The translations under genes were made by a program, and so were the position numbers. The notes beneath the pieces were generated by a model that saw nothing but the letters and a program-made list of their open reading frames with translations, searched no databases and was not told where the DNA came from. From contig CAJBER010000069.1 in the NCBI GenBank assembly GCA_903952135.1, forward strand, positions 1 through 44,866: a stretch of 44,866 nucleotides of DNA, in the 5' to 3' direction. The DNA is from an uncultured Algoriphagus sp. Its GTDB lineage: Bacteria; Bacteroidota; Bacteroidia; Cytophagales; Cyclobacteriaceae. Shown here piece by piece: positions 2,516 through 43,919 of the stretch. Position 1 is the stretch's first letter, and the number at the start of each line of letters is the position of its first letter.

Positions 2516-2578
2516 GTGGTCTGTGGACAGCCTGTAGACCGAGGTCTATCGTCTGCCTGCAGGTTGAGCTATGTCGAC
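2516..2578. repeat. GTNNAC heptad array, degenerate copy
   Basis: Located in the 502-bp spacer (2182-2683) between padR and the C25 protein. GTGGTC (2516) and GTGGAC (2523) are 7 bp apart, followed by GTAGAC (2534) and GTCGAC (2573). It belongs to the same family as the arrays at 10420, 41522, 41614, 43805 and 43893 but is the least regular. I see nothing else in the spacer apart from the candidate PadR sites. Confidence 0.55.
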
Positions 2579-2683
2579 GATTATCCGCAGAAATTCAGGT
2601 ATGCTTTAAGCTACTAGTGAGATTTCGGATAATCCTATTCTATTTTTTTAATTCTGAGCTCGGCTCAACTTCCCCATTTTTTC

Positions 2684-4813
2684 ATGAGAAACCCCATCGT
2701 TCTTATTCTCCTAGGTTGTGGCCTGTGCAGTATTTCCATGGCCCAAGATTCGGTCTGGTACCGCTATGGCCAGACCTATTACAAAATTCAAACTGCTACC
2801 GATGGAATCTACCGGATTTACCCTGCAAGTATGGAGGCAGCTGGAATTCAACTTGAAGGGAAAGATCCTCGATGCTTTCGGCTCTACCACCGAGGAAGGG
2901 AAGTGGCTCTTCAAGTAGCTGGTGAGCAGGATGGGAGCCTGGATCCGGAGGATTACCTGGATTTTTTGGGGAAAAGAAACGAGGAGTGGAGGGATTCAGG
3001 GATTGCAATTCCAAATCCATACACCAACACCTATTCAGATACGACTGCCTTTTTCCTAGTTTATACCCCTGGAGAGCGAGGAAAGCGAATGGACCTCCGG
3101 GCTGCTATTCCTATTTCGGATCAGTTTGAAGAAGTAAAACTCCAGGTGTTTGCGGAGGAGTATTCCATGGGAGAAATGGCACGATGGGGGCTGCGCGCAT
3201 CAACACCTAAGGAGGGGCAGGGTTGGATGAGTTCTGTGATTGCATCCAGTAGGAATCTGGAGTTCCAACTGGATGCTGACTTTACAAAAGGGGATTCCCA
3301 ATCTATTTCACTCGAACTGGGCTGGGTTGGGCGCTCGACTATGGAGCATTTACCCTTACTTTGGATTGGAACTTCTTCTAAGGTCCTTCGTGCACTGCCG
3401 AGTCCTCAATTTTCTGGGTATGAATCGTACAGGCAGTTCCTGGTCCTTCAGCAAGAGGATTTCAAAGATGGAAAGCTCAAGCTCCATTTGGCTGTAGATC
3501 CTGCCCGTGAAGGAGATTATTTCTCGCTGGCTTTTGCTCGACTTACCTACCTGCTGCCCAAAACTAATGCGAATACAGGACCTGTTCCTCGTCGATTTAC
3601 AGTTGATGCGCTGCATGCGGTACGCTTTCGAGATTTCGCTAGCCTGCCCGCCAACTACCTGATTGTGGGGCATGGGCTGCTTGAGCAACCGAGCCAATCT
3701 TACCCAAACCCACTCTTAGCATATGCTGCATACCGTGCCACCGAGGCAGGTGGGAGTTACTCCACCTTGGTGCTTCGTATGGAGGACTTGTACGATCAAT
3801 TTGCCTTTGGTGAAAAAACTCCCTTGGCCCTGCATGCATTTTTGCAATCCTACTGGCCGAAACACCAACCCAAGTACTTACTCCTTGCTGGCCGTGCACT
3901 AGTTCCATCTTCCCAAATCAGGCAAAAGGATACTGCGGTTTTCCAGCGAAACGCACCGCAGGCATTTGCTTTCCAAGACCTTGTTCCTACAGGAGGATTC
4001 CCGCCATCAGACTCCCAGTTTGTAAGGGAATTGAATTTGGAGGATCCTGCTCTACCAGCGATGGCAGTGGGGAGAATCCCAGCCAAAAATGCGCAAGAGC
4101 TCGCCGATTACTTGGATAAAGTCAAGGATAAAGAGGTTTTGGAAACTTCCGGTACGCCAAAGGTGCTCCACCTGGTTGGCGGAATGAATCCCGTAGAAAT
4201 CGAGCGGCACCGTAGTTTTATGGATGAATTTGCCACTGTAGCAAAAAATGGAATTTCAGAAGTGGAAGTGATCACTAAGGTGAAGGGGCTTTCGGCTGAG
4301 GTACAGCACTTGGATTTGAAAAATGAAATCAATGCCGGTTTGGCGCTGCTCACTTACTTTGGACATGGATCCATGGGGTACAACGAACTGGATTTTGGCT
4401 ATGTGTCTGACCCCAGCTTGGGCTATGCCAATGGTGGCGCCTATCCCTTACTGCTCATAAATGGCTGTGAATACGGGAATGCCTTTGGTCCGAGCTACAG
4501 CCAAGGGGAGGATTGGCTAATCACTCCAAAGAAAGGAGCAATTGCAGTACTTTCTAATTCTAGCGTGGGAGTGGACATTTTGCTCAAGCGCTCCAGCGAA
4601 TTGCTGTATCTAGGGCTCTTTGACTGGGACGAATCTTCTTGCTCGCCGACGCTCGGCGAGATTCTCCTGAAGGCAGAACGAGAGTTTACGGATCGCTATG
4701 GGCAGCGTCCCGAATACCAGGCTCACTTGGTACAATTGATTCTCTTGGGTGATCCCGCGTTACGGCTTTTTTCTTGTAAAAGCCCAAATAACGCCATCCT
4801 TCAAGGAAAGTAG
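2684..4813 (+). CDS. Secreted C25 (gingipain-type) cysteine peptidase, PorU2-like, short form
   Basis: A 709-aa product with a signal peptide (MRNPIVLILLGCGLCSISMAQ). The N-terminal part (DSVWYRYGQTYYKIQTATDG) resembles the prodomain of T9SS sortase-like proteins. The C25 domain covers about residues 320-700 and keeps the catalytic pair: His561 in TYFGHGS and Cys595 in INGCEYG. Earlier conserved strands are LLAGRALVPS and MAVGRIPA, and the domain ends LLGDPALRLF. In PorU or PorU2 proteins the chain usually continues well past this point with beta domains. Here it stops 14 residues later with no T9SS C-terminal signal. It could be a trimmed sortase-like enzyme or a stand-alone secreted peptidase. 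No other T9SS gene is nearby. Confidence 0.8.
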   Translation: MRNPIVLILLGCGLCSISMAQDSVWYRYGQTYYKIQTATDGIYRIYPASMEAAGIQLEGKDPRCFRLYHRGREVALQVAGEQDGSLDPEDYLDFLGKRNEEWRDSGIAIPNPYTNTYSDTTAFFLVYTPGERGKRMDLRAAIPISDQFEEVKLQVFAEEYSMGEMARWGLRASTPKEGQGWMSSVIASSRNLEFQLDADFTKGDSQSISLELGWVGRSTMEHLPLLWIGTSSKVLRALPSPQFSGYESYRQFLVLQQEDFKDGKLKLHLAVDPAREGDYFSLAFARLTYLLPKTNANTGPVPRRFTVDALHAVRFRDFASLPANYLIVGHGLLEQPSQSYPNPLLAYAAYRATEAGGSYSTLVLRMEDLYDQFAFGEKTPLALHAFLQSYWPKHQPKYLLLAGRALVPSSQIRQKDTAVFQRNAPQAFAFQDLVPTGGFPPSDSQFVRELNLEDPALPAMAVGRIPAKNAQELADYLDKVKDKEVLETSGTPKVLHLVGGMNPVEIERHRSFMDEFATVAKNGISEVEVITKVKGLSAEVQHLDLKNEINAGLALLTYFGHGSMGYNELDFGYVSDPSLGYANGGAYPLLLINGCEYGNAFGPSYSQGEDWLITPKKGAIAVLSNSSVGVDILLKRSSELLYLGLFDWDESSCSPTLGEILLKAEREFTDRYGQRPEYQAHLVQLILLGDPALRLFSCKSPNNAILQGK

Positions 4814-4841
4814 AACCCTTTGGGTGGAATAGGTAAACTAG

Positions 4842-5201
4842 TTAGGGTAGCATCTGCCCAAAAGTAAGCAGGTTGTGGTCAGGATCGAGGAGGGAAAATT
4901 CCCGCATGCCCCAGGACTTAGTTTCCAAAGGTCCATTCGGGTGGATCGCCACCTTACGCTCCAAAAAGTACTGGTAGAGGCTATCAATAGCATCCGTTCT
5001 GAGGTAGATCTGTCCGTAGTTTTGTAGGGGATCCAGTCCAGGAAACAGGAAAAAATGGAGTTCAATCGCATCCTTTTTTACCATTAGGTATTCCGGGTAG
5101 TCCTGTGTGCCCACGAGTTGAAATCCCAGTTGCTCCACGTAATAGGCCTGGGTAACCGCTTTGTTGCGCATGGGCAACTTGGGGTGAACGGATAAAATCA
5201 T
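4842..5201 (-). CDS. VOC-superfamily (glyoxalase/bleomycin-resistance-like) protein
   Basis: A 119-aa single-module protein. The pattern is typical of a VOC half-site pair: an N-terminal beta-alpha-beta (AVTQAYYVEQLGFQLVGTQDY), central strand IELHFFLFPG, a second half beginning YGQIYLRTDAIDSLYQYF, and the closing MREFSLLDPDHNLLTFGQ. Members with this DPDHN(L)LTF ending include bleomycin-binding and dioxygenase-like proteins. The substrate cannot be told from sequence. It is convergent with the C25 gene and sits 48 bp downstream of the VTT gene on the same strand, so it may be co-transcribed with that gene. Confidence 0.8.
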   Translation of the reverse strand: MILSVHPKLPMRNKAVTQAYYVEQLGFQLVGTQDYPEYLMVKKDAIELHFFLFPGLDPLQNYGQIYLRTDAIDSLYQYFLERKVAIHPNGPLETKSWGMREFSLLDPDHNLLTFGQMLP

Positions 5202-5249
5202 AACTCGTAGATTTAGTTAGGCTAAGATTCGATTTTTGAGTGATCCAAA

Positions 5250-5945
5250 CTAGCTTTTTTTCTTGTTCCAGAAATGCCAAATTCCCCAGATACTTCCGAC
5301 CAGTAGGATGCCAATAGCCAACCACTGCTCTGGATCTTGCAACGTTGCTTGGGCATCCAAGAATGTATTCGCTGCCTTCCCAGTGGCAAAAGCCAGGATG
5401 GTTCTCGGAAGCATTCCTGGAAGTCCATAGCGGATGATTTGTTGCAAAGGGATCCCCAAGGAGGCAAATAGGAAATTGGAAATCGCGAAAGGAATCACCG
5501 GGCTGATGCGTACAAAGAAGACGAGTCCGGCAGGCTGGTCTGTTCTCCGCTCTATTTCCTCTTTCAAGCCAGGATGACGTGCATAGAGGAGGGTACGGAA
5601 ATCCGCATTGAGCCACTTGCCCAAGGAGTAGCCCAACACATTTGCTAGGAGGTAGGCAATCACCAGATGGGGAAATACGGCCCATCCCCAAAAGAAGCCT
5701 GAGGCTAGTGCCGTGAGCGTGGTGGGGAGAAAAGCGAGCCCAACTAGCAGGGCCAGAATTAGGATCAGCAGGATATGATCTCCAATTCCTGTCACCGTAA
5801 TTTGTTCCAGTTCCTGGTAGCGAGTGCTGAGCAAAAGCGAACCCAGCAGTGGGACAAAGCTGACCCAAATCCAGCCGAGCGTTGTGCTGGGATGGCTTCG
5901 GAAGTAGCGCACCAAGTCCTTGAAAATGCTGTCCTTTTTTGTCAT
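5250..5945 (-). CDS. TVP38/TMEM64-family (VTT/SNARE-associated) membrane protein
   Basis: The start MTKKDSIFKDLVRYF at 5945 is preferred; a longer frame begins with ATG at 6008, adding 21 residues unlike the family N-terminus. The 231-aa product has a first membrane helix (LGWIWVSFVPLLGSLLLS), then the VTT core with LPTTLTALASGFFWGW, AYLLANVLGYSLGKW and the re-entrant signature FFVRISPVIPFAISNFLFASLGI, and ends with a helix before KKK. DedA/TVP38 proteins are implicated in lipid scrambling or transport and envelope homeostasis. The partner and substrate here are unknown. Confidence 0.85.
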   Translation of the reverse strand: MTKKDSIFKDLVRYFRSHPSTTLGWIWVSFVPLLGSLLLSTRYQELEQITVTGIGDHILLILILALLVGLAFLPTTLTALASGFFWGWAVFPHLVIAYLLANVLGYSLGKWLNADFRTLLYARHPGLKEEIERRTDQPAGLVFFVRISPVIPFAISNFLFASLGIPLQQIIRYGLPGMLPRTILAFATGKAANTFLDAQATLQDPEQWLAIGILLVGSIWGIWHFWNKKKS

Positions 5946-6065
5946 CTTTGACTCGCTTTTGAAGTAAAAGCCAGCAAGTTTAGCACCTAGTATTGGAATT
6001 GCATTCATTTATCCAAAATAGGTTTTGAATTCTATGTAAACCCAACCCTCCTAAATCCACTTTAG

Positions 6066-7211
6066 ATGAAATTTGGTACCAAAGCCATTCACGCGGGAGT
6101 AGCCCCGGATCCTTCCACAGGAGCCATCATGACTCCCATCTTTCAGACTTCTACCTACGTTCAAAAATCTCCTGGAGACCATCTGGGTTACGAATACAGC
6201 CGAACACACAATCCTACCCGTACCGCTTTGCAGCAGAGTTTGGCAGCTTTGGAAAATGGGAAACACGGAATTTGCTTCTCTTCTGGCCTTGGCGCCATCG
6301 ATTCGGTCATCAAGTTATTTAACCCAGGAGATGAGATCATCTCGACAAATGACTTGTATGGCGGTAGTTACCGCTTGTTTACCAAGGTGTTCGAGCGCTA
6401 CGGCATCAAATTTCATTTTGTATCCATGGCCGATCCCGAGGCCCTTTCTTCCCTAGTCAACGAGCGTACCAAGATGGTTTGGGTGGAGACTCCTACCAAC
6501 CCGATGATGAACATCATCGACCTGAAGGCCATGGCGGCTTTCTCCAAGAAGCACGGCTTGCTTTTGGCGGTGGACAATACCTTCGCTTCTCCTTATCTAC
6601 AGAATCCACTCGACCTGGGGGCAGATATCGTGATGCATTCGGTGACCAAGTACCTGGGTGGGCACTCTGATGTCGTGATGGGAGCCTTGATCGTAAATGA
6701 CGATGAGCTTGCTTCTCGCTTGGTCTTCTTGCAAAACGCCTGTGGGGCGACTCCTGGACCTCAGGATTGTTTCTTGGTGCTTCGCGGCATCAAAACGCTT
6801 CACCTTCGCATGGAGCGTCACTGCCAAAATGGAAAAGTGATCGCTGAATACTTACGAAATCATCCCAAGGTAGCCAAGGTCTATTGGCCAGGCTTTGAAG
6901 ATCATCCCAACCATCAGGTAGCCAAAAGCCAGATGCGCGACTTTGGGGGCATGATCTCTTTTACCCTAGTAGGCAATCAACTTTCAGATGCCAAAAAGGT
7001 GATGGAAAATTTCCACCTCTTTGCCTTGGCAGAATCCTTGGGTGGAGTGGAGTCGCTTTGCGGACATCCAGCGAGTATGACCCATGCATCTATTCCAAAG
7101 GAAGAGCGTGAAAAGGTAGGTTTGGTGGATTCCTTGATCCGACTCAGTGTAGGGGTGGAGGATGTGGAAGATCTCAAAAAAGATCTTGCCGACGCCTTAG
7201 CAAAAGTTTAA
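6066..7211 (+). CDS. Cys/Met-metabolism PLP-dependent enzyme (cystathionine gamma-synthase/lyase type)
   Basis: A full-length 381-aa fold-type I enzyme. Seen in the sequence: YSRTHNPTR (44-52, phosphate/substrate contact), CFSSGLGA, DDLYGGSYRLF-type block at 96-105, WVETPTNPMMNIID, AVDNTF with Asp170 for the PLP ring nitrogen, and SVTKYLGGHSD with the Schiff-base Lys195. The C-terminus has the family's ESLGGVESL...HASIPKEER and LIRLSVGVED. It makes or breaks cystathionine in transsulfuration, or acts as a related gamma-lyase; motifs alone do not separate these. It is divergent from the VTT gene and ends in its own terminator, so it is probably monocistronic. Confidence 0.9.
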   Translation: MKFGTKAIHAGVAPDPSTGAIMTPIFQTSTYVQKSPGDHLGYEYSRTHNPTRTALQQSLAALENGKHGICFSSGLGAIDSVIKLFNPGDEIISTNDLYGGSYRLFTKVFERYGIKFHFVSMADPEALSSLVNERTKMVWVETPTNPMMNIIDLKAMAAFSKKHGLLLAVDNTFASPYLQNPLDLGADIVMHSVTKYLGGHSDVVMGALIVNDDELASRLVFLQNACGATPGPQDCFLVLRGIKTLHLRMERHCQNGKVIAEYLRNHPKVAKVYWPGFEDHPNHQVAKSQMRDFGGMISFTLVGNQLSDAKKVMENFHLFALAESLGGVESLCGHPASMTHASIPKEEREKVGLVDSLIRLSVGVEDVEDLKKDLADALAKV

Positions 7212-7230
7212 TTATCCAAGAATTTCTTAC

Positions 7231-7266
7231 AAATCCCTACTGCTAATCGTGGTGGGGATTTTTTTT
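7231..7266 (+). terminator. Rho-independent terminator of the PLP-enzyme gene
   Basis: Stem AAATCCCTAC (7231-7240) pairs with GTGGGGATTT (7252-7261) with one mismatch, an 11-nt loop, then a run of T to 7266. It lies 20 nt after the stop at 7211. Confidence 0.85.
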
Positions 7267-7279
7267 GATTCTGGATGAG

Positions 7280-8104
7280 TTAGTTCCCTACTTTTCGAAG
7301 AAGGTTAAGTGCTTGTTTTTCCAAGGTAGCGGTCAGGCTTTTCTTTTCCTCTTTCAACTCCTTCACCCAATCCAGGTATTTTTTGGATACTTCTTCCTGT
7401 TGTCCGATAAAGTGAGTCAAGCTTTGAAGATTGAGGTGGTTGGCATACCAGGGTTTTAAGCCATTTTTCAGACGTTCCAGTTCCTCGTGAATTTGAGGAA
7501 GGTAAATCGGATTGAGGCCGAGGTGAACCAGTAAATTTTCCAAAATGATCACCTTGCGCAGTCCCTCAAAAAGATCTCGGAAGCCTTGGGTAGACATGGG
7601 GGGAGTTACTTCCTTGCTTAGCGAATTCAATTCCTCTTGCACCAACTGGTGTATCGAGGTAGTCAGCACCAAGGGCTTAATGCCTTTACTGGCTTCAAAG
7701 GCTTTTTCTAGATAGTCTTCCCATATTTTCAAGGAGCTGCCCACCATCAGGTCAAAGGCTTCCTTTTGCATCCCCCTTTTTTGCTCGTTCAAATAGGTTT
7801 TGAAGCTCTCAAAGGTGAGCGATAAATTTTTTTCACGCTCTTTCATTCCTTTTTCCACGAGCTTGAGGTGGTGGATTTTTTTTAAGGACTTCTTTAGGGT
7901 TTTCAGTGGAAAAAATAAGGAATAGCCGAGGTGTTTTTGCTCAAAGTGAATCTTCTCCAGCAGTTCAGAATAGAGCTCTAAAAACTCCAATTGTTCCAAG
8001 AGGGCAATAGCCTTTGCAGACTTGATTTCTTTACCAAGTTCTAGAAAAAGGGCTTTGGCCTGTTGGTGTTGGTGTGAAAAGAGCTGAAATACAGGGGATT
8101 TCAT
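7280..8104 (-). CDS. Helical hypothetical protein in photolyase operon
   Basis: 274 aa, almost entirely predicted alpha-helical and rich in Lys, Glu and Leu, with no signal peptide or membrane segment. The N-terminal HQHQQAKALFLELGKEIKSAK and the later GLRKVIILENLLVHLGLN faintly recall alpha-helical histidine-containing (CHAD-like) proteins, but I cannot assign a family. It starts 12 bp after the DUF2027/Smr stop, which in turn overlaps the photolyase gene, so it is the third gene of that operon. Confidence 0.7.
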   Translation of the reverse strand: MKSPVFQLFSHQHQQAKALFLELGKEIKSAKAIALLEQLEFLELYSELLEKIHFEQKHLGYSLFFPLKTLKKSLKKIHHLKLVEKGMKEREKNLSLTFESFKTYLNEQKRGMQKEAFDLMVGSSLKIWEDYLEKAFEASKGIKPLVLTTSIHQLVQEELNSLSKEVTPPMSTQGFRDLFEGLRKVIILENLLVHLGLNPIYLPQIHEELERLKNGLKPWYANHLNLQSLTHFIGQQEEVSKKYLDWVKELKEEKKSLTATLEKQALNLLRKVGN

Positions 8105-8116
8105 TCTGAGGGTTGC

Positions 8117-9067
8117 TTAGGAAATTTTGACCAAGGTAGCACCATAGCCCCACTGGTCTTTCTGCGTGTCTTGAAAGTAGGAAATATTTCCAATTTGGCT
8201 CAATCGCTTGTGAATTTCTTTTCGAAGTACCCCGTTTCCGATGCCATGAATGAAGGTGATTTGGTCCATTCCTGCTGCGATGGCTTGGTTCAGGTTTTTC
8301 TCAAATACTTCCAATTGAATTCGCAGCTTCTCGGAGTTGCTCAGGCTATCCGGCTTCGGATGGATGGCTTCGATGTGGAGGTCGATGGAGGCTGCAGGTG
8401 CATGCACTTTTGAAGGTGTAGGTGCGGGACTAAGTTGGTTGAGTTCGGCATTCAGCCCGCGAATGTCCAGCTCCTTGGTCGTTTGCTCCAAGGCAAATAG
8501 GTACACATTCTTTCCGAGCAAGGGAGCCTTACTCAAGTGCTTGAAAAATTGGGTTGCCTTGAGTTTAAACTGCCGCTCAAAGGCAGGAATCGCTTTTTCT
8601 AACTTGGGTTGGATGGCAATAAAGCGCAGCAAAAAAGAGGGCCATTCGTCCAATTCTTTGAGGAGTCGGTCGTCTATTTTTTTTGCTTCTCCAGCGCCAA
8701 GGGTACCTGCATAGAGGGTACGGTGATTGGTTCCATACACTTCTGAAGCATGGCTGAGGTAGGCTTGACGGCTGTCGTTGATGAGGTAGAGACTGAGGTT
8801 TTGGTCATTGATCGGCAAGAAGGCCAGGTAGAGCCCTTGGTCTTTCGGCGCAGAGATGGGCATTGGCGTCTCGATCTCCTGGGAAGGATTGTGGGCCTCG
8901 CCGAAGTAATTTTTCTCCGCTTCCGCCACGAGCACCACCTCGGATTTGAGGACAGGAATCACAAAGCCATCTTCGATTTCTACCTCGATTCTGCCTCCTG
9001 CTGATACCTTCCGAATGATCCCCTCTTCTTTCCCGTGCAGGACGCGTACTCGATCTCCTATGTTCAT
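8117..9067 (-). CDS. DUF2027 protein with C-terminal Smr domain
   Basis: 316 aa. The N-terminus (MNIGDRVRVLHGKEEGIIRKV) is a KOW/Tudor-like beta barrel (about 1-50). The middle is the DUF2027 body (LAFLPINDQNLSLYLINDS). The C-terminus (about 228-316) is a Smr domain: IDLHIEAIH, then TFIHGIGNGVLRKEIHKRL and a closing GATLVKI. Smr domains, as in MutS2, bind or nick branched nucleic acids or act on stalled ribosome-mRNA complexes; this type is common in Bacteroidota. Its ATG overlaps the photolyase stop (ATGA, 9064-9067), suggesting translational coupling. Confidence 0.88.
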   Translation of the reverse strand: MNIGDRVRVLHGKEEGIIRKVSAGGRIEVEIEDGFVIPVLKSEVVLVAEAEKNYFGEAHNPSQEIETPMPISAPKDQGLYLAFLPINDQNLSLYLINDSRQAYLSHASEVYGTNHRTLYAGTLGAGEAKKIDDRLLKELDEWPSFLLRFIAIQPKLEKAIPAFERQFKLKATQFFKHLSKAPLLGKNVYLFALEQTTKELDIRGLNAELNQLSPAPTPSKVHAPAASIDLHIEAIHPKPDSLSNSEKLRIQLEVFEKNLNQAIAAGMDQITFIHGIGNGVLRKEIHKRLSQIGNISYFQDTQKDQWGYGATLVKIS

Positions 9068-10362
9068 GGTGTCAATGCTTTTTTGTAGGTTTCTATGGCT
9101 CGATTGCGCGCAAATTTATGATCTACAATTGGTTTTGGGTAGGCTGCTGTCCCAAATTCTGGAATCCATTTTTTGATGTAGGTAAGGTCCTTGTCAAACT
9201 TTTCGGTTTGGGAATCAGGGTTGAAAACCCGGAAATAGGGCTGCGCATCGGTACCTGTTCCTGCCGCCCATTGCCATCCTCCATTGTTGGAGGCCAGTTC
9301 AAAGTCCAGCAATTTCTTTGCAAAATAGGCCTCTCCCCAGCGCCAGTCGATGAGCAAGTGCTTGGTCAAAAAGGAAGCCACAATCATGCGCACTCGGTTG
9401 TGCATAAAGCCTGTAGCATTCAGTTCCCGCATGCCTGCGTCCACAATAGGATAGCCGGTGGTGCCTGCACACCAAGCGTCAAATTCGGCTTCATTATTTC
9501 TCCAAGGGATGCGGTCGTACTGGGGTTTGAAAGCCCGATCTACTACCTGAGGGGCATTTCCCAAGATCATCGCATAAAATTCCCGCCAGATCAATTCATT
9601 CATGTAGGTGGCGTTAAGCGAGATAGCCTTGAGGGCGAGTTTGCGGATGGAAAGCGTGCCAAATCGAAGGTGAATTCCTAAGCGGCTGGTACCCCGCTGA
9701 GCGGGAAAATTTCTGCGTTCCTCGTAGTGACGAACGATCTCCTCGTCGAGTTCGCTACTAGGAATTTCAATGGGAGAAGGAGCAAAACCCATGTCCGTTA
9801 GCGTAGGCATGGGTAGCGGGGAACTCTGAACTAAGTTTTTCCAATTGGCAGTGGGTAGGGGCTGTACGCGGGTGGTTCTAAATTTTTCCAACCAGTTTTT
9901 ACTGTAGGGGGTAAAGACCTTGTAAAACTCCCCGGATCCATTGACGATTTCTCCAGGTTCAAAGATGACTTGGTCTTTGAAGGATAGGAACGGAATGTTT
10001 TTTTCTCCAAGTAGGGCTTCTACTTGGCTATCCCGGGATTGGGCATAGGGCTCGTAATCCCGGTTGGTGTAGACAGACTGCACCTCGTATTCGGTGAGTA
10101 GCTTTTGAAAGATTTCTTCTGGATGTCCGTATCGAACGAGCATGGAACTTCCTTGCTGCTCGAAGTAAGCCTTCAAACGCGTAATCTGGGTATGTATAAA
10201 AGAGACACGGGCATCGGTTTTATCTTCTAATACATCCAAAATGTGCCGGTCAAAAATGAAAAGCGGGAATACCTGTTCCTCCTGTTGCAAGGAGTAAAAA
10301 AGTGCAGTCTGGTCTTCGATACGGAGGTCGCGCCGAAACCAGCACAGGCTAATTTTTTTCAT
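9064..10362 (-). CDS. phr: Deoxyribodipyrimidine photolyase
   Basis: 432 aa, full length for a class I photolyase. The N-terminal alpha/beta domain begins ISLCWFRRDLRIEDQTAL. The FAD-binding helical domain contains GTSRLGIHLRFGTLSIR, ELIWREFYAMIL, WCAGTTGYPIVDAGMREL, GFMHNRVRMIVASFL, DWRWGEAYFAKKL, DFELASNNGGWQWAAGTGTDAQPYFRVFNP. These contain the flavin-binding Asn (SNNGGWQW) and the electron-transfer tryptophans. It repairs UV-induced cyclobutane dimers in the cytoplasm using light. First gene of the three-gene operon running to 7280. Confidence 0.95.
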   Translation of the reverse strand: MKKISLCWFRRDLRIEDQTALFYSLQQEEQVFPLFIFDRHILDVLEDKTDARVSFIHTQITRLKAYFEQQGSSMLVRYGHPEEIFQKLLTEYEVQSVYTNRDYEPYAQSRDSQVEALLGEKNIPFLSFKDQVIFEPGEIVNGSGEFYKVFTPYSKNWLEKFRTTRVQPLPTANWKNLVQSSPLPMPTLTDMGFAPSPIEIPSSELDEEIVRHYEERRNFPAQRGTSRLGIHLRFGTLSIRKLALKAISLNATYMNELIWREFYAMILGNAPQVVDRAFKPQYDRIPWRNNEAEFDAWCAGTTGYPIVDAGMRELNATGFMHNRVRMIVASFLTKHLLIDWRWGEAYFAKKLLDFELASNNGGWQWAAGTGTDAQPYFRVFNPDSQTEKFDKDLTYIKKWIPEFGTAAYPKPIVDHKFARNRAIETYKKALTP

Positions 10363-10419
10363 ACATGTTCTTTAGGTAGAGAATACCGAGGAGATAGAAA
10401 TTGTTTAAAATTTTTAATT

Positions 10420-10446
10420 GTCGACAGTGGACCGTTGACAATTAAC
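10420..10446. repeat. GTNNAC heptad array (four units)
   Basis: GTCGAC, GTGGAC, GTTGAC and ATTAAC start at 10420, 10427, 10434 and 10441, exactly 7 bp apart. It also contains a 9-bp inverted repeat (10414-10422 with 10437-10445), so it can fold as a hairpin 9 nt past the TamB stop. There is no T-run typical of a terminator. Confidence 0.7.
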
Positions 10447-10454
10447 TTTGGCTT

Positions 10455-13400
10455 TCAATTTTCCTTGGGAGGAATTTTCTCCAAACGTACTGGTGGAATG
10501 TAATCGTCCTGAAGGGGAAGATTTTCGAGTTTAATCGGTTTCCAGTTTTCTTTTACCCCATAATCATCTCGTAAAAAGTCATCGGAATCCTGAAGATTGA
10601 GGCGCTCAGCCTTTCTGCGGGCGAGTTTTCGGAAGAGCTCGGATACCGAATTGAAGGATACGTTTTGCGTCACAGAAGCGCCATAAGAGAGCACGTTTTG
10701 CGATAGGGACAGCGAGGTAAAGGTGTTGAAATTATTGCGGTTGAAGATCCGAAGTCGGTAGACGCCATCTTCGGTAATCAAGTATTCTGCCTGCCAATCT
10801 CCAATGATGGATGCCGCGCTGGCGGACCCTTTGTTGTCCGTAAATCCACCATCTCGGGAAACGCGTAGTCGACCATCTAGGAAGGTTCGTGCCACGCTGA
10901 TTTGGAAATTTTCTAGGGCATTTTGATCCATGGTCGCCAAGTCTATGGATACCTCAAGATTTTTGTCCAGCTGTCCCATAAAGCGGTTGATTTGGGAAGA
11001 TAGCAAGTTTCCCAGGCTCGAGGATAGCGTGGATCCCCCAGAAAACTGCCCCTCAGGAGAAAAGCTTTGCGCGACGATAACCGAAAACACCTGCCGATTC
11101 ATCTCCTGTTCATCCGCAGCTACTCGATTTTGGAAGGCTGAAATGGTCGTTTGCACATCGCCACTGGAAGGGAAGGCGCTGAAGTCAAATCCAAATTTGA
11201 AAGTTGGGGAGAGCAGTTCTCCTTGCAGGTCCATGAGCACCTTCACGGGGAATCTTCTTCGCATCTGGCTATTTTCCTGTTCGGTGCTATTTGCATTGAG
11301 CAGGGGCTGGAGGGATACATTTTCTTGGTAGCTGGCCTTCAGGTTCATGATCCCTGTATAGGGGTCTCCATACCAAGTGATTCTTCCTCCAGGTTGGACG
11401 ATAAACTGTTTTTTGACCACGTTGTAGAGGGAGAAATTATATTTTCCTTCCACAATATCGTAGTTGCCAGCAAGCGAGAAATTACCCTGCGTATCCACGT
11501 TCATGTTGAGCGTTCCTCTTCCTCGCCCTTGGATACTTTCTTCTGTCTTTGGGTCGATGATGATCTCTGTAAATGCATCTGGGGTAATGTCCAGAATAAA
11601 ATTCATTCGAATGTTTTCAATCTCCAATCGCTTGACTTCCTCAGCCAAGGCACGAATGCGAACCGTGTCCTGCACGTTGATCACTTGAATGAAGTCTTCT
11701 TGGAATTGTTCCTTGGAACTCGTCAATGGAATTGAAATTCGGGTATTGGGCCGTGAAGTCACACGGGCGTTCACATCCAGGTTGCTCATACTTCCTTTGA
11801 TCGCTAAAGTACCCGTGGCGTAGGCCGTTCCAAAGAACAATTCGTTGTCCTTGGCACTCGTATTTAGGATCTGGAAATTGCTCAACTGGGAGTTGATGTC
11901 TAAGTAAATGGAAGAAAAATTTTGGTGATTAAGTCCTCCAGTGAAGGTGGCACGATTGCCATTCCCATCGCGAAAAGCAAGGTCTTGAAAACTGACTTGA
12001 GTAGGTCGGAAGAGTAGGCTGCCGTCCAATTGGTAGGAGGTATTTAGGTAATTGATGCGCAATTTACCTTGTTCAACACGAGCACTGCCGAGCAATTCTG
12101 GGTTATCTAAATTCCCTTGGAGTTGTAGGTTGCCTGATAAGGTTCCACCGAGATTGGAAATGTATTTGGATAGAAATGGCTCAAAAATCACCAAATTGGC
12201 TTGGGTGAGTTTGGCATCAAAGTCAAGGTTTTCGGAGTCCAAATCCACTGTTCCATCAATAGCAATTTTCTTCTGTTCATTGAAGAAATTTTCCAAGTTG
12301 AGTCTCAAGTCCCGTTCTTCCATGGCTGCGGAGAGATCCACTTCCCCAATTGGAAAATCGTTGATTTCTAGGCCTTCCACATGAAGCGATCCTGTGAGTT
12401 TGGCTTGATCTTGTAGCGAGGCAAGTTGGAAACGTCCATCTGCAATCCCTTCTACCTCCAGCGCACTGATGGTATTGAGCAGGTCCAGCGAGACGCCTTT
12501 GAGATCGAGTTCCAGGGATTCATTGGGATTGGAGGTGATTTTCCCTTCCAAACCAAGAGATTGCCCTTCATTGGCAATTCGAAGTTTGGAGAAAGTAAGG
12601 GCACCATCTTGCAGGCTGACTAGGTTATTCGGGTCAAACTGCCATTCACGATTCAAGACCCGAAGTAGGGAAGGCTTGAATTTGAGGAAAGTTCCTGCTT
12701 TGGTAAACTGGGTTTCCGCCTCAATTCGCGCCTTACTTTGCGTGGAATCCTGGTCCAAGCTGAGTAGCAAATCCAAGTTGGTTTGATCCCAGATTGCTTC
12801 TACCCCTAGGTTGGTAAACCCAAGCGTTTTTCCCACAGCCTGCTTCTTGGAGTAGACGTAAAAGGAGGCCAAAATATCTGAACTATTGATGATTTTGGAG
12901 GTATTGAAGTCGATGTTGGTATCAAAAGCGGTATTGCCATTGTAGGTGATGGTATCCACGGATGTAAAAAAGTTGAACACCGTATTCTCGGTGGTTTGGT
13001 AGAAGGCGCCTTCCAAAACGGTGTTCTTGGAGATGCTGAGTTGCGGTTCAACCAAGTGGATGAGGGGATTGATGTCCCGCATGCGGATGTTCAAGTCCAG
13101 GTTGTAGTTCTCTGAAAAATTCTCCTTCAGGTTTGCCAGCGGAGGAGTTTCATTGAGCAGGATGGAAAGGTATTGCTTGCCGAGTATCTGTAAATCTTTG
13201 CTCATCTGCTCCAGTTCAAACTGACCTGAAGCGGCCATGACCAGGTAGTCTGAATTTAGGGATAGAGTGCGAGTGCCTCCGGCAAATAAGGACTGCACAA
13301 AAAAATCGCCGGCATCCAAGGAGCGGTCTTTGTAGCCAACTTTCAGGTCCTTCACCCGAGCAATGCCTTGTACATCGTCTAAAGTGATGCCTTGGGTATC

Positions 13401-32840: not shown

Positions 32841-32861
32841 GAAGGTCCTTCCATCCAATCG

Positions 32862-37853: not shown

Positions 37854-37856
37854 TTA

Positions 37857-37884: not shown

Positions 37885-37887
37885 GTG

Positions 37888-37931
37888 CCCTACTGGGTCC
37901 CGATGCAACGAAGTGAAATCGGGAAGCCCAG
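37888..37931. repeat. Hairpin repeat, copy 1
   Basis: A 44-nt element folding as CTGGG.TCCCGAT ... ATCGGGA..CCCAG around a 13-nt loop (GCAACGAAGTGAA). A second copy with four substitutions is at 39198-39241, inverted base changes breaking part of the stem. The two bracket the Fic gene. Confidence 0.7.
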
Positions 37932-37969
37932 TAAATTGACTTAAGTAGTTGAACTCCTCCGACAGCGGG

Positions 37970-39079: not shown

Positions 39080-39132
39080 GAGCCGATTCGAACTTATTTA
39101 CGGCTCAAATATAGTAAAAATATGAGCCGATT
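39079..39132 (-). promoter_or_regulatory. fic promoter with three regularly spaced TGAGCCG sites
   Basis: TGAGCCG occurs at 39079-39085, its complement CGGCTCA at 39101-39107, and TGAGCCG again at 39123-39129, each exactly 22 bp from the next. The first overlaps the fic start codon. The minus strand reads TATATTTG (39106-39113), a TAnnTTTG -7 box overlapping the middle site. A repressor bound here would block transcription; the Fic protein's own winged helix is the obvious candidate (inference). Confidence 0.65.
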
Positions 39133-39197
39133 TAAACTAATTAGCAACTCATCAGCTAGTGTAAGGTTCCCTAAATTGAACCATTCAAAAGTTTATT

Positions 39198-39241
39198 CCC
39201 TATTGGGTCCCGCTGCAACGAAGTGCAATCGAGAAGCCCAG
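39198..39241. repeat. Hairpin repeat copy 2 joined to tRNA tail
   Basis: Copy of the 37888-37931 element. Its last CCCAG runs directly into the tRNA-Asn 3' tail, so the 17-bp repeat (39235-39251) overlaps its end. This junction is what one expects from recombination through the shared CCCAG. Confidence 0.65.
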
Positions 39242-39251
39242 GAGGGGGAGC
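39235..39251 (+). repeat. Distal copy of the tRNA-Asn 3'-end repeat
   Basis: Identical 17 bp to 37837-37853. It marks the far end of the Fic-carrying segment. Confidence 0.6.
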
Positions 39252-39255
39252 AAGC

Positions 39256-39425
39256 GGTCCGCCGCGGCGGATTGGATCAGGAGGCTATCGGATTTAGATC
39301 TGCTTCATCTGCGTGAGAAAAAATAGCTCGCATCCTCCACGGCGGACTTAAAGACGCGAAGCCAGTCCGCCGCGGCGGACCCGTAATTCTGCGGGGCAGG
39401 CCCGCCTGCGGCAGGCAGGCGGATA
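39256..39425. repeat. REP-like GC palindrome cluster
   Basis: Contains GTCCGCCGCGGCGGA (near 39258 and 39366), a degenerate CTCCACGGCGGAC (39337), CCCGTA-ATTC-TGCGGG (near 39379) and a CCTGCGGCAGG palindrome (near 39405). Non-coding and far more GC-rich than the flanking Fic genes. Confidence 0.7.
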
Positions 39426-39474
39426 AATACTTCGTCTTCGTCAAAATGATGGGTGTTTCCAATACTTGCTGCTA

Positions 39475-40353
39475 TCATTCTTCGTAGTAATAGGAATAGT
39501 CTATGCCTTTCATAAACATTTCCCTGTCATTAATCTTAGCAGTTAATGCGGTTTCTAAAAGTTGCTTTAAAACGCTACTATCAACTGTACTAATAATCAT
39601 AGCGTTCATGTAATTCTCTTTGCTGATTTTGCTCCAATCCACACATTTTTTCAGGTGTTTTTTGAGCATCATGTCCAGCCATATTCTTGTACTTCTGCCA
39701 TTGCCTTCCATAAAAGGATGTGCCTTGTTCATTTCGGTATATTTCAAACAAATTTCATCCCAGGTGGCTTGTGGTAGTTCATCAATTTTTTGCAGCGTGC
39801 TTTTTAGATGTTGTGCATAGACAAACTGGTAACCGCCTTTTGAAATACTTTTTTCTCGGATTTGCCCAGCAAAATCATACAAGCCCCCAAACAAATACGC
39901 GTGTATTTGTTGCAAACCCTTGCTCGTGCCTATTTCAAAGTCATTAATTAAATTGCTTTCAAAAAGTGTATATGCTTTTTTCTTGCTTTGCCCATCTATG
40001 CTGGTATCGCTGTATAAAAACCAATCCAAAAACTTGATTACCCGATTGTTGGGAAAATGTTTTGCCAAGGCAATTATACCGGCGCTATCTAAAGTGTCTG
40101 TTGCGTATTTTTTGCCATCTGCCGCCATGAATTTCAGTTGGGTAGTGGCACTAACCAACTGATTATTTTCTTTTTTTAGTTTGGCTTTTAGGTATTTCCA
40201 ATAGTTGCGGACCTTGGCATAGTCCGGTTCTTCGTTTAGGACCCCCACAATATCCAACACGTTAAACCACCATTTGGAATGTTTATCATCCCAAACAGCC
40301 CGTACCTCTCGGTCATTGAAAAAACGGATGGATAGTTTTGGTTGTGCTTTCAT
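39475..40353 (-). CDS. BRO-N-like domain fused to Fic domain
   Basis: 292 aa from ATG at 40353 (MKAQPKLSIRFF); an in-frame ATG at 40392 would add 13 residues. Residues about 5-110 resemble phage antirepressor BRO-N domains (SIRFFNDREVRAVWDDKHSKWWFNVLDIVGVL, TDTLDSAGIIALAKHFPNNRVIKFLDWF). Residues about 125-260 are a Fic domain with HPFMEGNGRSTR (212-223), the full HPFx(D/E)GNGRxxR motif, and the Doc-like GQIREKSISKGG region. No inhibitory (S/T)xxxE(G/N) helix is apparent before the core, unlike the neighbouring Fic. It is AT-rich relative to the sulfatase and CotH genes. Likely an accessory or phage-related gene. Confidence 0.85.
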   Translation of the reverse strand: MKAQPKLSIRFFNDREVRAVWDDKHSKWWFNVLDIVGVLNEEPDYAKVRNYWKYLKAKLKKENNQLVSATTQLKFMAADGKKYATDTLDSAGIIALAKHFPNNRVIKFLDWFLYSDTSIDGQSKKKAYTLFESNLINDFEIGTSKGLQQIHAYLFGGLYDFAGQIREKSISKGGYQFVYAQHLKSTLQKIDELPQATWDEICLKYTEMNKAHPFMEGNGRSTRIWLDMMLKKHLKKCVDWSKISKENYMNAMIISTVDSSVLKQLLETALTAKINDREMFMKGIDYSYYYEE

Positions 40354-40770
40354 TCCTTGTTTTCCCGTTGCTTTATAGGCTAATCCTCGCATTTCAATGC
40401 CGCCACAGCAGGAGCTTTTCGGTTGATTAAAAGGCTATTTTTTGAATTCTTATAGTTAAAGGTTGCGATTTTTTTTCATCCTTTCCAAAGCGTTTTAAGT
40501 CTTTAGGGCAGGTTTCCGCCGCGGCAGGCTAGTTTTCCTTACTTCTTCCTTCTTCACTTAGCGTTGGGCATTCGATATTGGGGAAGTATCCTGCCTTCCG
40601 CAGCGGATAGGCTAGAAGCGAGAGAAAAAAAGAATAAGTCTCGCAAAGACGCAAAGCCGCAAAGGCCTCCGGCTGTCAGGCTAGTTTTCCCCAATCTTCA
40701 TTCTTCACTCAGCGTTGGACATTCTACATTTGGAAAAATGTCGTATTTGGTAGTTTATCAAGTTCACCTT
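40354..40770. repeat. Repeat-bearing spacer
   Basis: No gene seen. Two imperfect direct copies of a 55-nt element lie at 40527-40581 and 40679-40733, both starting GGCTAGTTTTCC and containing TTCTTCACT(T/C)AGCGTTGG. Between them are a CGCAAAG-type element with GCCGCAAAGG at 40656-40665 and degenerate CCGCGGCGG palindromes near 40518 and 40592. Confidence 0.6.
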
Positions 40771-40932
40771 CTACTCCAATGGCTTCTTTTGTTTGATCTG
40801 TTCTAAGAACAGAATTTGTTGCTCTTTGGTCATTGCCTTAAAAAGAATCCGTTCCTCCATCGGAACCTTGTTCTTTACCTCTTCCATCATTTTGATTCTG
40901 AGCATCATTTCGGCCTTCTCTATTTCCTTCAT
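40771..40932 (-). CDS. Small charged protein, 53 aa (hypothetical)
   Basis: ATG at 40932 to TAG at 40771-40773 gives a 53-aa product, MKEIEKAEMMLRIKMMEEVK at the N-terminus, then KNKVPMEERILFKAMTKEQQ and ILFLEQIKQKKPLE. It is highly helical, one third charged, and has six Met. It is free of the repeat sequences on its left and ends 38 bp after the neighbouring lipoprotein stop on the same strand. No family recognised. The protein-like composition supports coding, but no homology check was possible. Confidence 0.5.
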   Translation of the reverse strand: MKEIEKAEMMLRIKMMEEVKNKVPMEERILFKAMTKEQQILFLEQIKQKKPLE

Positions 40933-40970
40933 ATATTTCTTTTAAATGTAAGTATCTCTAAAGCAAAAAC

Positions 40971-41471
40971 TTAGTAGCTCAAGTCGAAAATCTGATAACG
41001 CGTAAACTCCCAGAGCTGCCCCGAGCTACCTACACAGCCATCCAGTGTGTTCAGGGTATCGTACTTGCCGGCGAGCTGCTGGTAGTAGGGGATTTTGTTT
41101 TTTGGGTCTTTTTCCGACAAGCCCAGCAGCGCATAGTAACGCACATTGGGGGAGGGGTGGCGAAGGAGTAGGGCCAACTCCTCCAAGCTCGCCTGCTGCT
41201 GCAGCGCCTCGTAGGCTTGGTACACCTCTGAAAAGCTTCCCGAAAAACCGACTTGCTGGCTTTCCACTTGTTCCTGCATCGCTAAGTAGTGAGTTAAGGT
41301 ATTCAACTGCTGGTTTCCGAGGAACTTGACCTCGGGCTTGGTTCCCTCGAGAACCACCAAAGGCTTACAGGTATGTGGGTACCTTAGGTGACAGGGAATA
41401 TCGGGCGGTACTTCTTTTACTTCCTGACAAGAAGCGAGAAATAGCATGAGAAAAAAGAGGGAGCGATGCAT
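40971..41471 (-). CDS. Small lipoprotein with HEAT-like repeat
   Basis: 166 aa. Lipoprotein signal MHRSLFFLMLFLASC then QEVKEV. A single HEAT-like helix pair is visible (LEELALLLRHPSPNVRYYALLGLSEKDP). The N-terminal half has two Cys (CHLRYPHTCK). Function unknown; it may be a surface adaptor. Same strand as the 53-aa gene downstream. Confidence 0.75.
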   Translation of the reverse strand: MHRSLFFLMLFLASCQEVKEVPPDIPCHLRYPHTCKPLVVLEGTKPEVKFLGNQQLNTLTHYLAMQEQVESQQVGFSGSFSEVYQAYEALQQQASLEELALLLRHPSPNVRYYALLGLSEKDPKNKIPYYQQLAGKYDTLNTLDGCVGSSGQLWEFTRYQIFDLSY

Positions 41472-41521
41472 ACCCTTCCCAACGGATTTTGCGCCAACTT
41501 ATTTTAAGCCAAAAGCATTTT

Positions 41522-41548
41522 GTCAACTGTTAACGGTCCACGGTCCAC
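41522..41548. repeat. GTNNAC heptad array (four units), left arm
   Basis: GTCAAC, GTTAAC, GTCCAC, GTCCAC start at 41522, 41529, 41536 and 41543. The last 13 bases are the perfect inverted complement of 41628-41640. Confidence 0.75.
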
Positions 41549-41613
41549 AGCAAATCCTGCTCTACTTTGAAATTTGTCGTGAATTGCAAGTTTTATTTGA
41601 ATTCCAAATTGCA

Positions 41614-41640
41614 GTCGACCGTCGACCGTGGACCGTGGAC
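41614..41640. repeat. GTNNAC heptad array (four units), right arm
   Basis: GTCGAC, GTCGAC, GTGGAC, GTGGAC start at 41614, 41621, 41628 and 41635. With 41536-41548 it forms a 13-bp stem around a 79-nt loop, between two divergent genes. Confidence 0.75.
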
Positions 41641-41702
41641 TATTTCTTACCTCAGCAATACTAAAAATACCAGGTGTCCGTTTACTTTTCTCTTGCCCAC
41701 TT

Positions 41703-42818
41703 ATGCTCACTCAATTGGACCTTATTTTGGATTGCTTTGCCCGTCGGGATCGACTGGGCCTGGAGGACTTGCTCTCTCCAGAATACACCTATTACGAGGT
41801 GTCTAAGGACAATTTTCTAGATCGCCTGGAGGATTTCTGGCAGGAATGGGAAGCATCCTCCTCGCTCACCGACCCACTGCAAGTGATCCTCGGTTCCTGC
41901 TGCAACAAAGCCTGCCAAAACCACCTTGGCAAGTCTGCTTACCAATTTCGCTCCCCCGATGGCAAATGCCTGGATCTGCGCTTTGTGCTGGTTCCCAATC
42001 CCTGCGGAGGCTATGTGGTCAAAGACATCTACCCCTGTCATCAGCTGCTCACGTTCGAGCGAGTGGAGGGCCCGGACAGCCTGCTAACCTTCTGGGTCTA
42101 CGAGGACGACAAGCGCGGTACAGAGCTTCCGGAAAACTACCCCATCCTGCTCCACCAAGCGCAAGAAGGGTTGGCCAACTGGAAGGAATTGATTGGCCAT
42201 GGCCCGGTTGATTTTTCCCAACTCCACGACTGGCTGCATCGCTACGAGGTCACCTACCACGACTGCGGAGAATGGATCGACCTTGGGGAGATTGTCTGGA
42301 GATGGGATGGGTTTCTCCGAACTTACCATGACGTGGAACTCTTTGTCTCCTTTGTGGAAGAATTTGAAGCCGACCTGATCTGCTTCCAAGTGGGGGACTT
42401 TCTCGGCCTTCCGGAGGAGAAAATGATCCCCCTGATCTTGGATATCGAGCGGCGGATGGAGCTCCGCTACACGGTGATTCATGGCACGGATTTTGACATG
42501 GTGGACCACACCGATTTTGGAAAGCTGTGCATCAACTGCCGGACTTCGCTCACTCTGAAAGGCGACTTGATTCGGGTCCTGATGGACTTTCGAAGCTGGT
42601 TTGCCCAGGAGCGAAGTAGGCTCCTGTCCAAGTACTTTTCACTCACTGCTGGGGAGCGAGATGCCTTTCTGGAGACGGCCGAGAGCCCTTTTCAGCTGTA
42701 CCAGGTAGGCACGATGCTCTCCTTCCACCTCCAAACGCGCGAACGCTTTCGCAAGCAAGGAGTTTTTATTCCTTTTTACCCTGGAGGGGAGAGTAACCTT
42801 GTTTTTCCCTCGGAGTAG
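41703..42818 (+). CDS. Hypothetical cytoplasmic protein, 371 aa
   Basis: Start ATG at 41703 (MLTQLDLILDCFARRDRLGLED); the frame also extends to a GTG within the repeat arm at 41628, which is unlikely. Acidic, Trp- and Tyr-rich, with no signal or membrane segment. Cys-rich patches SCCNKACQNH (about 69-78) and LCINCRTS (about 278-285) could bind metal, and one long helical region follows (IRVLMDFRSWFAQERSRLL). No family recognised. It sits upstream of the M28 peptidase on the same strand (70-bp gap). Confidence 0.7.
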   Translation: MLTQLDLILDCFARRDRLGLEDLLSPEYTYYEVSKDNFLDRLEDFWQEWEASSSLTDPLQVILGSCCNKACQNHLGKSAYQFRSPDGKCLDLRFVLVPNPCGGYVVKDIYPCHQLLTFERVEGPDSLLTFWVYEDDKRGTELPENYPILLHQAQEGLANWKELIGHGPVDFSQLHDWLHRYEVTYHDCGEWIDLGEIVWRWDGFLRTYHDVELFVSFVEEFEADLICFQVGDFLGLPEEKMIPLILDIERRMELRYTVIHGTDFDMVDHTDFGKLCINCRTSLTLKGDLIRVLMDFRSWFAQERSRLLSKYFSLTAGERDAFLETAESPFQLYQVGTMLSFHLQTRERFRKQGVFIPFYPGGESNLVFPSE

Positions 42819-42888
42819 GCAGCCTCCCTTTTTGTTGCCATGATTCTTTTTCGCGTACCCTTTTTAGTTCAAGTCTTTTTCCCCATTT

Positions 42889-43761
42889 ATGAAAGCATCC
42901 CAAGAAAATCTCTACCGCCACGTGGACTTCCTGACCTCGATTAGGCCCTTCCGCAACTACCAGCAACTCGATTCCCTGAATCGGGTGGCGGCCTATATCC
43001 GACAGGCCTTTGAGGAATCTGGATTGGCTGTACGGGAGCAAACCTGGACCGTGAATGGACAGACCTACACCAATGTGATCGGGGTGTACAACGAGGCCGC
43101 GAGCGAGCGCCTCGTGGTCGGTGCCCATTACGATGTCTGCGGGGACCAGCCTGGGGCCGATGACAATGCCAGCGCCGTGGCGGGCTTGCTGGAGTCTGCT
43201 CGATTGGTGTGTAAGGAAAAGCCCAAGTTGGCCTACAGCATTGAGTTTGTGGCCTACTGCCTGGAGGAACCGCCCTTTTTCGGGACCAAACAAATGGGCA
43301 GCTACATCCATGCTGCCTCCCTACATGCGGAGCAGGCAAGCGTGCTGGGCATGATCTGCTACGAGATGATTGGCTACTTCTCGGATGAACCCGATTCCCA
43401 AACCTACCCCACCGAGGAACTGGAGCAGCTTTATCCGTCTACGGCCAACTTTATCATCGTGGTGGGCATTGAGCCCCATCGGGAATTTACCGAGCGGGTG
43501 CATCGCCTGATGTCTGCAAAGGCTGCCATCGATGTGCAAGTGGTGCATTTCCCGGAGAGTCACGCTTCGGCGGGCCTGGCAGGGCTTTCGGATCAGCGCA
43601 ACTATTGGGCTTTTGGCTATCCTGCGCTGATGATCAACGACACCTCCTTTATTCGCAATCCCCATTACCATGAGCCGACGGATACGATCGACACGCTGGA
43701 CTTTGCCAAAATGGCAGCCGTGGTCTCCGCTACCTGCCAGGCTCTGGTAAAGTTGAAGTAA
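42889..43761 (+). CDS. M28-family zinc aminopeptidase-like protein
   Basis: 290 aa. Two-zinc M28 ligands: VVGAHYDV (His80, Asp82), PGADDNASA (Asp91), YCLEEPPFFGTKQMGS (Glu126-Glu127), CYEMIGYF and the closing HYHEPTDT (last zinc His). No signal peptide is seen, so it is probably cytoplasmic, unlike many secreted M28 enzymes of Bacteroidota. It would trim peptides from the N-terminus or act as a related amidohydrolase. Confidence 0.9.
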   Translation: MKASQENLYRHVDFLTSIRPFRNYQQLDSLNRVAAYIRQAFEESGLAVREQTWTVNGQTYTNVIGVYNEAASERLVVGAHYDVCGDQPGADDNASAVAGLLESARLVCKEKPKLAYSIEFVAYCLEEPPFFGTKQMGSYIHAASLHAEQASVLGMICYEMIGYFSDEPDSQTYPTEELEQLYPSTANFIIVVGIEPHREFTERVHRLMSAKAAIDVQVVHFPESHASAGLAGLSDQRNYWAFGYPALMINDTSFIRNPHYHEPTDTIDTLDFAKMAAVVSATCQALVKLK

Positions 43762-43772
43762 AGAGTACCAAA

Positions 43773-43898
43773 AACACCTGAGTTGAAGTCCAAGTAAATG
43801 GGCTGTGGACTGTCGTCTTTAAACCTCGGTCTATCGACGATTTAAAAATAGTACCCACAGAACACCTGAGTTGAAGTCCAAGTAAATGGGCTGTGGAC
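43773..43898 (+). repeat. 38-bp direct repeat carrying GTNNAC arrays
   Basis: A perfect 38-bp sequence beginning AACACCTGAGTTGAAG occurs at 43773-43810 and 43861-43898 (88-bp period). The spacer contains GTGGAC (43805) and GTCGTC (43812). Each copy ends in GCTGTGGAC, the entry of a heptad array. Confidence 0.8.
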
Positions 43899-43919
43899 CG
43901 TGGACTATGGACCGTTAGC
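43893..43919. repeat. GTNNAC heptad array (four units)
   Basis: GTGGAC, GTGGAC, ATGGAC, GTTAGC start at 43893, 43900, 43907 and 43914, again at exactly 7-bp spacing. It lies 45 bp before the vWA start. Confidence 0.7.

Follow-up and report, generated by a model that had tools for sequence, protein, structure and literature searches.

GTNNAC heptad arrays of an uncultured Algoriphagus as the probable module of short intergenic elements resembling miniature inverted-repeat transposable elements

A 44,866-nucleotide stretch of an uncultured Algoriphagus sp. (contig CAJBER010000069.1 of assembly GCA_903952135.1; hereafter the window) carries intergenic arrays of GTNNAC hexamers that are separated by a single spacer base and therefore repeat with a period of 7 bp. 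These arrays probably belong, as a heptad module, to a family of intergenic elements that are short, non-coding and non-autonomous and resemble miniature inverted-repeat transposable elements (MITEs), or to remnants of such elements. In relatives, elements of the family have inverted ends, target duplications and a dispersed distribution, most full copies carry a 28-bp heptad block, and the G, T and C of the heptads are constrained at the level of the element ends.

Anatomy, mobility and constraint of the element

A search with window positions 41640-43990 returned short dispersed matches in many relatives, centred on the array at 43893. Alignment of a ~155-bp dispersed repeat of the same draft genome (G000, locus L211) with six copies from relatives revealed common ends, TGATTATCCGC... 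and ...GCGGATAATCA, with the array inside. The intact form in relatives is ~148 bp long and has imperfect inverted ends of ~24 bp (TGNNTNTCCGC...CCAGTA). Between its left and right ends lie a central block, in most cases of four GT-N-G-W-C-N heptads, and then the end motif once more (GATTATCCGC); the end motif is also present in L211. In a survey of the genus that scored up to 14 candidates per genome, 42 of 60 genomes contained element matches at E ≤ 1e-4, many of them weak.

The relative G016 has 59 matches to the right-end pattern and 45 listed copies, which amount to 44 distinct ones as one was counted on both strands. Their lengths are nearly uniform (28 copies of 148 bp, 12 of 147 bp and 5 of 146-184 bp), and target duplications are scored for 36 of the 44 distinct two-ended copies (34 of these are perfect, with lengths of 8-11 bp), compared with 0.85 on average, and at most 4, when flanks were swapped. 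These near-identical copies with target duplications are therefore evidence of mobility in a relative. Target duplications accompany 33 of the 39 GT-block copies and 3 of the 5 CATCGGA-block copies. Six G016 loci (L302, L304, L315, L341, L342 and L343) show similar ends around the interior CATCGGA CATCGGA CACCCGA CATCCGG, and the period-7 interior is therefore not tied to one unit sequence. In size (70-300 bp without coding capacity), terminal inverted repeats, target duplications (in G016) and number of dispersed copies, the elements agree with bacterial MITEs, which are described in the available part of PMC3733652 as 70-300 bp long with terminal inverted repeats of 15-30 bp and no coding capacity.

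Several further arrangements were seen around the element. At L272 (1377-1527), at L270 (1357-1526) and near the start of L327, family elements or ends lie beside a period-7 stretch of CGGTCTT/CGGTCAT type, and the G016 loci L295, L299 and L311 carry 18-bp GC-rich inserts (CGCCACGGCGCACAGG type) within or at the edge of the heptad block. At about 2200-6400 of L131 (G016:C52), an intergenic pile-up of the heptad families GTGGACN, AAGTAGC, ACTGCCA and CAGTAAG lies outside the MITE anatomy.

The constraint on single positions was measured in copies collected by their similarity over the whole element, independently of the heptad motif. The alignment has 49 rows from 47 copies, some of which, L222 among these, are split in two; the full-length copies L270, L272 and L273, whose interior is unrelated, were left out. 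The 28-bp block is ungapped in 42 of the 49 rows, and column statistics were computed from 26 non-redundant rows of this kind, the 7 rows whose block is interrupted by gaps or insertions being excluded. The mean pairwise difference per column is 0.019 for G1, 0.038 for T2, 0.551 for N3, 0.191 for N4, 0.316 for A5, 0.019 for C6 and 0.474 for the spacer, with 0.307 over all flank columns. Taken by region, the G, T and C of the block (0.026) stand with the right end (0.053), the internal GATTATCCGC (0.066) and the left end (0.153), and position 3 together with the spacer (0.512) stands with the loop (0.503). The G, T and C of the heptad equal the element ends in conservation, and position 3 and the spacer vary like the unconstrained loop.

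Comparison of orthologous arrays gives a similar ranking: in 8 of 13 comparisons (5 were gapped or non-contiguous, and one window array was set against two relatives), changes number 3/66 at G1/C6, 6/66 at T2/A5, 11/66 at the inner two bases and 13/25 at the spacer, with 418/1960 in the flanks. The original prediction had proposed selection on GT..AC or on the 7-bp phase; both data sets support a constraint on GT..C in a fixed phase, and the A is not specially conserved among element copies. The units had also been called fully or nearly palindromic, which applies only superficially. In oriented arrays of the Algoriphagus genome and its close relative G065, the inner bases are mostly GG, CG or TG, with position 4 mostly G and position 3 variable, and the motif is therefore directional. 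In the element copies the block likewise is a directional, not a palindromic, motif.

These patterns suggest that the block is kept because the element depends on it; in the simplest case a mobilising transposase or a host factor would bind along it at a row of sites. Turnover of the units, by slippage or recombination, would proceed in whole steps of 7 bp, so that the phase is kept while the inner bases drift.

Arrays of the window and their assignment

The pattern in the window is genuine but was overstated in the original prediction, which described six sites, four of them with four consecutive units. An exact search with GTNNACNGTNNACNGTNNAC gave 5 overlapping matches at 3 sites (≥3 GTNNACN units each), located at 10420, 41522 and 41614. 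The other sites hold one or two exact units: by reading of the sequence, 43893 has 2 exact and 2 near units, all in register, 43805 has 1 exact and 1 near unit, and 2516 has 1 exact unit and near units without one clean register. Four consecutive units occur strictly at two sites, and at three if the mismatches at 43893 are tolerated. The excess over shuffled sequence was borne out, as the three-unit pattern was absent from all 100 dinucleotide-preserving shuffles of the window (mean 0.00, largest 0). The distinction from a simple microsatellite also holds: the inner two bases and the spacer change from unit to unit, and arrays degenerate in this way are therefore not a simple microsatellite.

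The 7-bp period was also seen in a motif-free lag scan of the window (run threshold ≥15 of 21 matches), in which lag 7 gave 4 runs (3 GTNNAC arrays and 1 T-rich run), the other lags (4-6, 8-11) gave 0-2 runs each, and one mononucleotide shuffle gave 1 run at lag 7. The draft genome, 2.84 Mb in 249 contigs and 89.9% complete, contains 23 exact matches at 16 sites, compared with 0 for the pattern read backwards, and 66 matches when one mismatch is allowed, compared with 3 for the reversed pattern. Against Rfam, with gathering thresholds, the window returned nothing but one tRNA.

Table 1. Repeat features of the window, with coordinates in the 44,866-nucleotide stretch
Feature	Position	Strand	Basis
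Putative copy of the ~150-bp MITE-like element	2492..2637	+	nhmmer, 48.6 bits; right part consensus-like
Heptads GTGGTC t GTGGAC (one near, one exact)	2516..2528	+	sequence
Internal end-motif copy GATTATCCGC	2579..2588	+	sequence, consensus
Right inverted end TCGGATAATC (consensus GCGGATAATC)	2625..2634	-	sequence, consensus
Three exact units	10420-10439		exact pattern search
Array, 3 exact and 1 near unit	10420..10446	-	pattern search, sequence, ortholog comparison
Two-armed element, opposite-facing array at each end, ~65 bp between	41522..41640	.	sequence; between divergent genes
Left arm, 4 exact units	41522..41548	-	exact pattern search
Right arm, 4 exact units	41614..41640	+	exact pattern search
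Putative element piece, one exact and one near unit	43776..43842	+	nhmmer, 21.5 bits; sequence
Putative element piece, four heptads in register (2 exact, 2 near)	43850..43923	+	nhmmer, 34.1 bits; sequence; matches in relatives

The window sites (Table 1) would be diverged, truncated or rearranged members of the family. The copy at 2492-2637 matches positions 43-152 of the 153-position model, its left ~42 positions being lost or diverged, and the piece at 43850-43923 is a second copy of the one at 43776. G065 and G006 have the two-armed element between the same genes, and G005 lacks it; the latter was considered as a clean empty site and rejected, the intergenic stretch being too diverged. At 41520-41551 the element model gives a weak match (14.8 bits) that is mostly the array itself. 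Besides the window arm, four further places of the genome match a two-armed copy on contig C60 at E<1e-4.

Orthologous sites differ between species. At the 10420 site, five species (the Algoriphagus of the window, G041, G072, G005 and G006) have either a single array, arrays accompanied by other repeats, or a two-armed element, or none of these. Arrays L153 and L011 differ by one 7-bp unit, L145 and L229 in unit identity, and L204 and L232, as well as L207 and L186, in the presence of an arm. The G041 ortholog of the 10420 site (L235) has a ~600-bp intergenic pile-up of other repeats beside the array, including palindromes of CCGCCGCGGCGGA type.

A number of results weigh against the assignment of the arrays to a MITE-like family. 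No window copy has both ends: 2492-2637 has the right end only, 43776-43923 consists of pieces, and such ends are absent at 10420 and 41522-41640. With the arrays masked, the element model recognises the flanks of 3/28 arrays in the Algoriphagus genome and 6/21 in G065 (random-position control, 0.30 and 0.75). Since so few flanks are recognised, most arrays of the Algoriphagus genome are attributed to sister forms or remnants on account of their orientation, their position and the inner motifs that they have in common (AGC, TTGAACTTCAA, GATTCG), which is weaker evidence. No mobilising transposase was found among the loci examined or within two transposase families in three genomes. In detail, no autonomous partner sharing the ends was found in G016 at 30 right-end loci and 20 stretches (of 59 matches), none of the open reading frames (ORFs) of three G016 loci without a left end, read by eye, carries element ends, and none of the PF01609 and PF00872 transposase genes of G016, G041 and G023 has them. 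The matching transposase or DNA-binding gene envisaged by the original prediction was accordingly not found in these two families and three genomes. In addition, mobility alone does not explain the strong placement at stop codons described below, and heptad arrays occur in many other phyla as well.

Gene ends, pairing and slippage as alternatives

Placement relative to genes was determined in 158 kb of the Algoriphagus genome, comprising the window and 26 stretches chosen mostly around arrays or element matches, with genes and gene ends called by a simple in-script caller. None of 28 arrays lies inside a called gene, although the coding fraction is 87.9%, in agreement with the original prediction, which had seen no arrays inside coding sequence; in G065 the count is 0/26. 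Genes flanking window arrays look functionally unrelated (DNA photolyase, 9064-10362, minus strand; peptidase C25, 2684-4813, plus strand; peptidase M28, 42889-43761). The array at 10420-10446 lies 8 nt past the stop codon of the minus-strand ORF 15065-10455.

A bias in strand and in distance to gene ends is also present. Among 50 arrays of the Algoriphagus genome and G065 (4 of 54 had no neighbour on one side and were excluded), 21 lie ≤13 nt from a stop codon, compared with 4.80 on random placement in the same gaps (maximum 12 in 5000 draws); the corresponding numbers for start codons are 1 and 2.66. Of 22 near-stop arrays, 20 have one orientation, 2 are ties and 0 are opposite.

This placement raises the alternative of a signal in the 3′-untranslated region or at the gene end, according to which arrays 2-13 nt past stops act in mRNA or as DNA sites, for example in transcript stabilisation or as a help in termination. 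A benefit to the host would keep the arrays, with mobile elements merely their carriers. The stop-codon excess and the common orientation speak for it, as do terminator-like hairpins that follow several near-stop arrays in the sequence. The 13-nt cut-off was picked after the data were seen, however, some of the arrays counted are orthologues present in both genomes (L144/L230 among those near a stop), 29 of the 50 arrays lie away from stops, and unit content at one site alters quickly between species. Among G016 copies that look recent, only 4 of 32 elements have an end equally near a stop, as measured from element ends and not from arrays. We consider a gene-end signal of this kind rather unlikely as the explanation of the arrays. 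A role in restriction or methylation was also considered, GTNNAC being a recognition sequence of that kind. A broader reading, likewise rather unlikely, is that the directional array GT-N-G-W-C-N is a recognition array read by a putative protein; it would be carried by mobile elements and also placed or retained past stops in one orientation, as one system linking mobility with gene ends.

Pairing of units with each other, or of arm with arm, as RNA or single-stranded DNA is an improbable reason for keeping the units. In alignment A1 (25 of the 26 representatives, L222 being left out), the helix of units 2-4 is paired in 81.0% of cells, compared with 77.9 (sd 1.1) in shuffles (3/500), and the covariation is 0.129, compared with 0.093 (2/500). 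Two window folds are stable (z -4.08 for 41522-41640 and z -3.55 for 10405-10455), and in other bacteria an inverted partner lies ≤250 bp away for 30 of 136 arrays among the matches listed (control, 3). Kinship among sequences can yield such shuffle values, however, and only two of eight pairs change on both sides, with 10 and 12 of the 25 sequences unpaired there. The covariation of inner bases that the original prediction put forward for examination is thus seen as a slight excess over shuffles, with both-sided changes confined to these two pairs. Furthermore, when the inner and spacer bases of oriented arrays are reshuffled, 187 of 200 reshuffles reach at least the same fold stability, and RNAalifold retains only the right-hand hairpin of the element. 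Hairpin selection on the inner bases was rejected on the weak covariation and the lack of added foldability; given the latter and the RNAalifold result, we prefer recognition at the DNA level over a pairing role.

A neutral heptanucleotide repeat made by polymerase slippage and decayed by mutation would accord with unit numbers that shift in 7-bp steps and with the report (Mrazek 2007, quoted in PMC4679880) that heptamers outnumber the other classes of long repeats in most of the bacterial genomes examined, but is already disfavoured and very improbable, as decay should strike all seven positions alike (G, T and C 0.026, position 3 and spacer 0.512) in copies that were found by whole-element similarity and keep a 28-bp block in 42 of 49 rows.

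Distribution and relation to known repeats

Matches occur in 24 of 38 genomes, the Algoriphagus genome included, among them 20 of the 23 relatives from the genus and 3 of the 14 genomes from the same order. One of these three, G025, complicates the picture with 27 matches compared with 56 for the reversed control. A four-unit scan of a public genome collection found at least 114 stretches with arrays; the phyla among the matches listed are Bacteroidota, Cyanobacteria, Acidobacteria, Gemmatimonadetes, Chloroflexi, Actinobacteria and others. Degenerate heptad arrays are therefore widespread. Among the matches listed, 32 of 136 such arrays lie in crude ORFs, compared with 112.5 expected. Under the broader reading given above, those of other phyla might represent modules of the same type.

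Heptanucleotide simple sequence repeats consist of one fixed heptamer in tandem, a form that the GTNNAC arrays do not have. The short tandemly repeated repetitive (STRR) heptanucleotides of Calothrix resemble the arrays in being tandem and dispersed, but have fixed unit sequences. Repetitive extragenic palindromic (REP) sequences are palindromes of 20-40 bp with a GTAG or CGTC foot and are associated with the gene of a REP-associated tyrosine transposase (RAYT); by inspection, the GTNNAC element differs from them in size and anatomy.

The closest published systems are other heptamer repeats and MITEs, compared here on the available parts of the papers cited. The TAACTGA heptamer direct repeats of Beggiatoaceae, Cyanobacteria and some Bacteroidetes (PMC4679880) are likewise intergenic, of period 7, mixed with other heptamers, subject to 7-nt indels between strains, and patchy in distribution. 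They differ in having a fixed heptamer that lies, in the main genome, mostly just upstream of start codons, and the text available describes no inverted ends or target duplications for them. The GGGNATC heptamer repeats of Xanthomonas and Nostoc (PMC4692102) share with the arrays their degeneracy, intergenic location, preference for four units, and frequent placement near stop codons on one strand. They are G-rich and quadruplex-forming, in contrast to GTNNAC units, which lack such G-runs, and are not described in that text as part of a mobile element. The paper also mentions the STRR repeats of Calothrix. Unlike the MITEs known from PMC3733652, the element carries a phase-constrained heptad block, came with no parent transposase in the families and loci tried, is mostly truncated or rearranged in the Algoriphagus genome, and leaves many arrays directly past stop codons.

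As of 2015, no detailed literature on heptamer repeats existed, according to the part of PMC4692102 available. The literature searched, to the extent that its text was accessible, contains no paper in which heptamer arrays are connected with a MITE; in PMC4692102, MITEs are mentioned only as another class of repeat. MITEs and heptamer repeats are both known kinds, and the phase-constrained block within a MITE, together with the one-way placement past stops, seems new within that literature.

With these results, one family of heptamer repeats, reportedly the commonest long repeats in most of the bacterial genomes that have been studied, gains an anatomy, namely a constrained block inside a short mobile element, for which target duplications in a relative are evidence of movement and for which constrained and free positions have been measured apart. 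The block offers a concrete target for an assay of what binds it, and the one-way placement past stop codons becomes a testable question.

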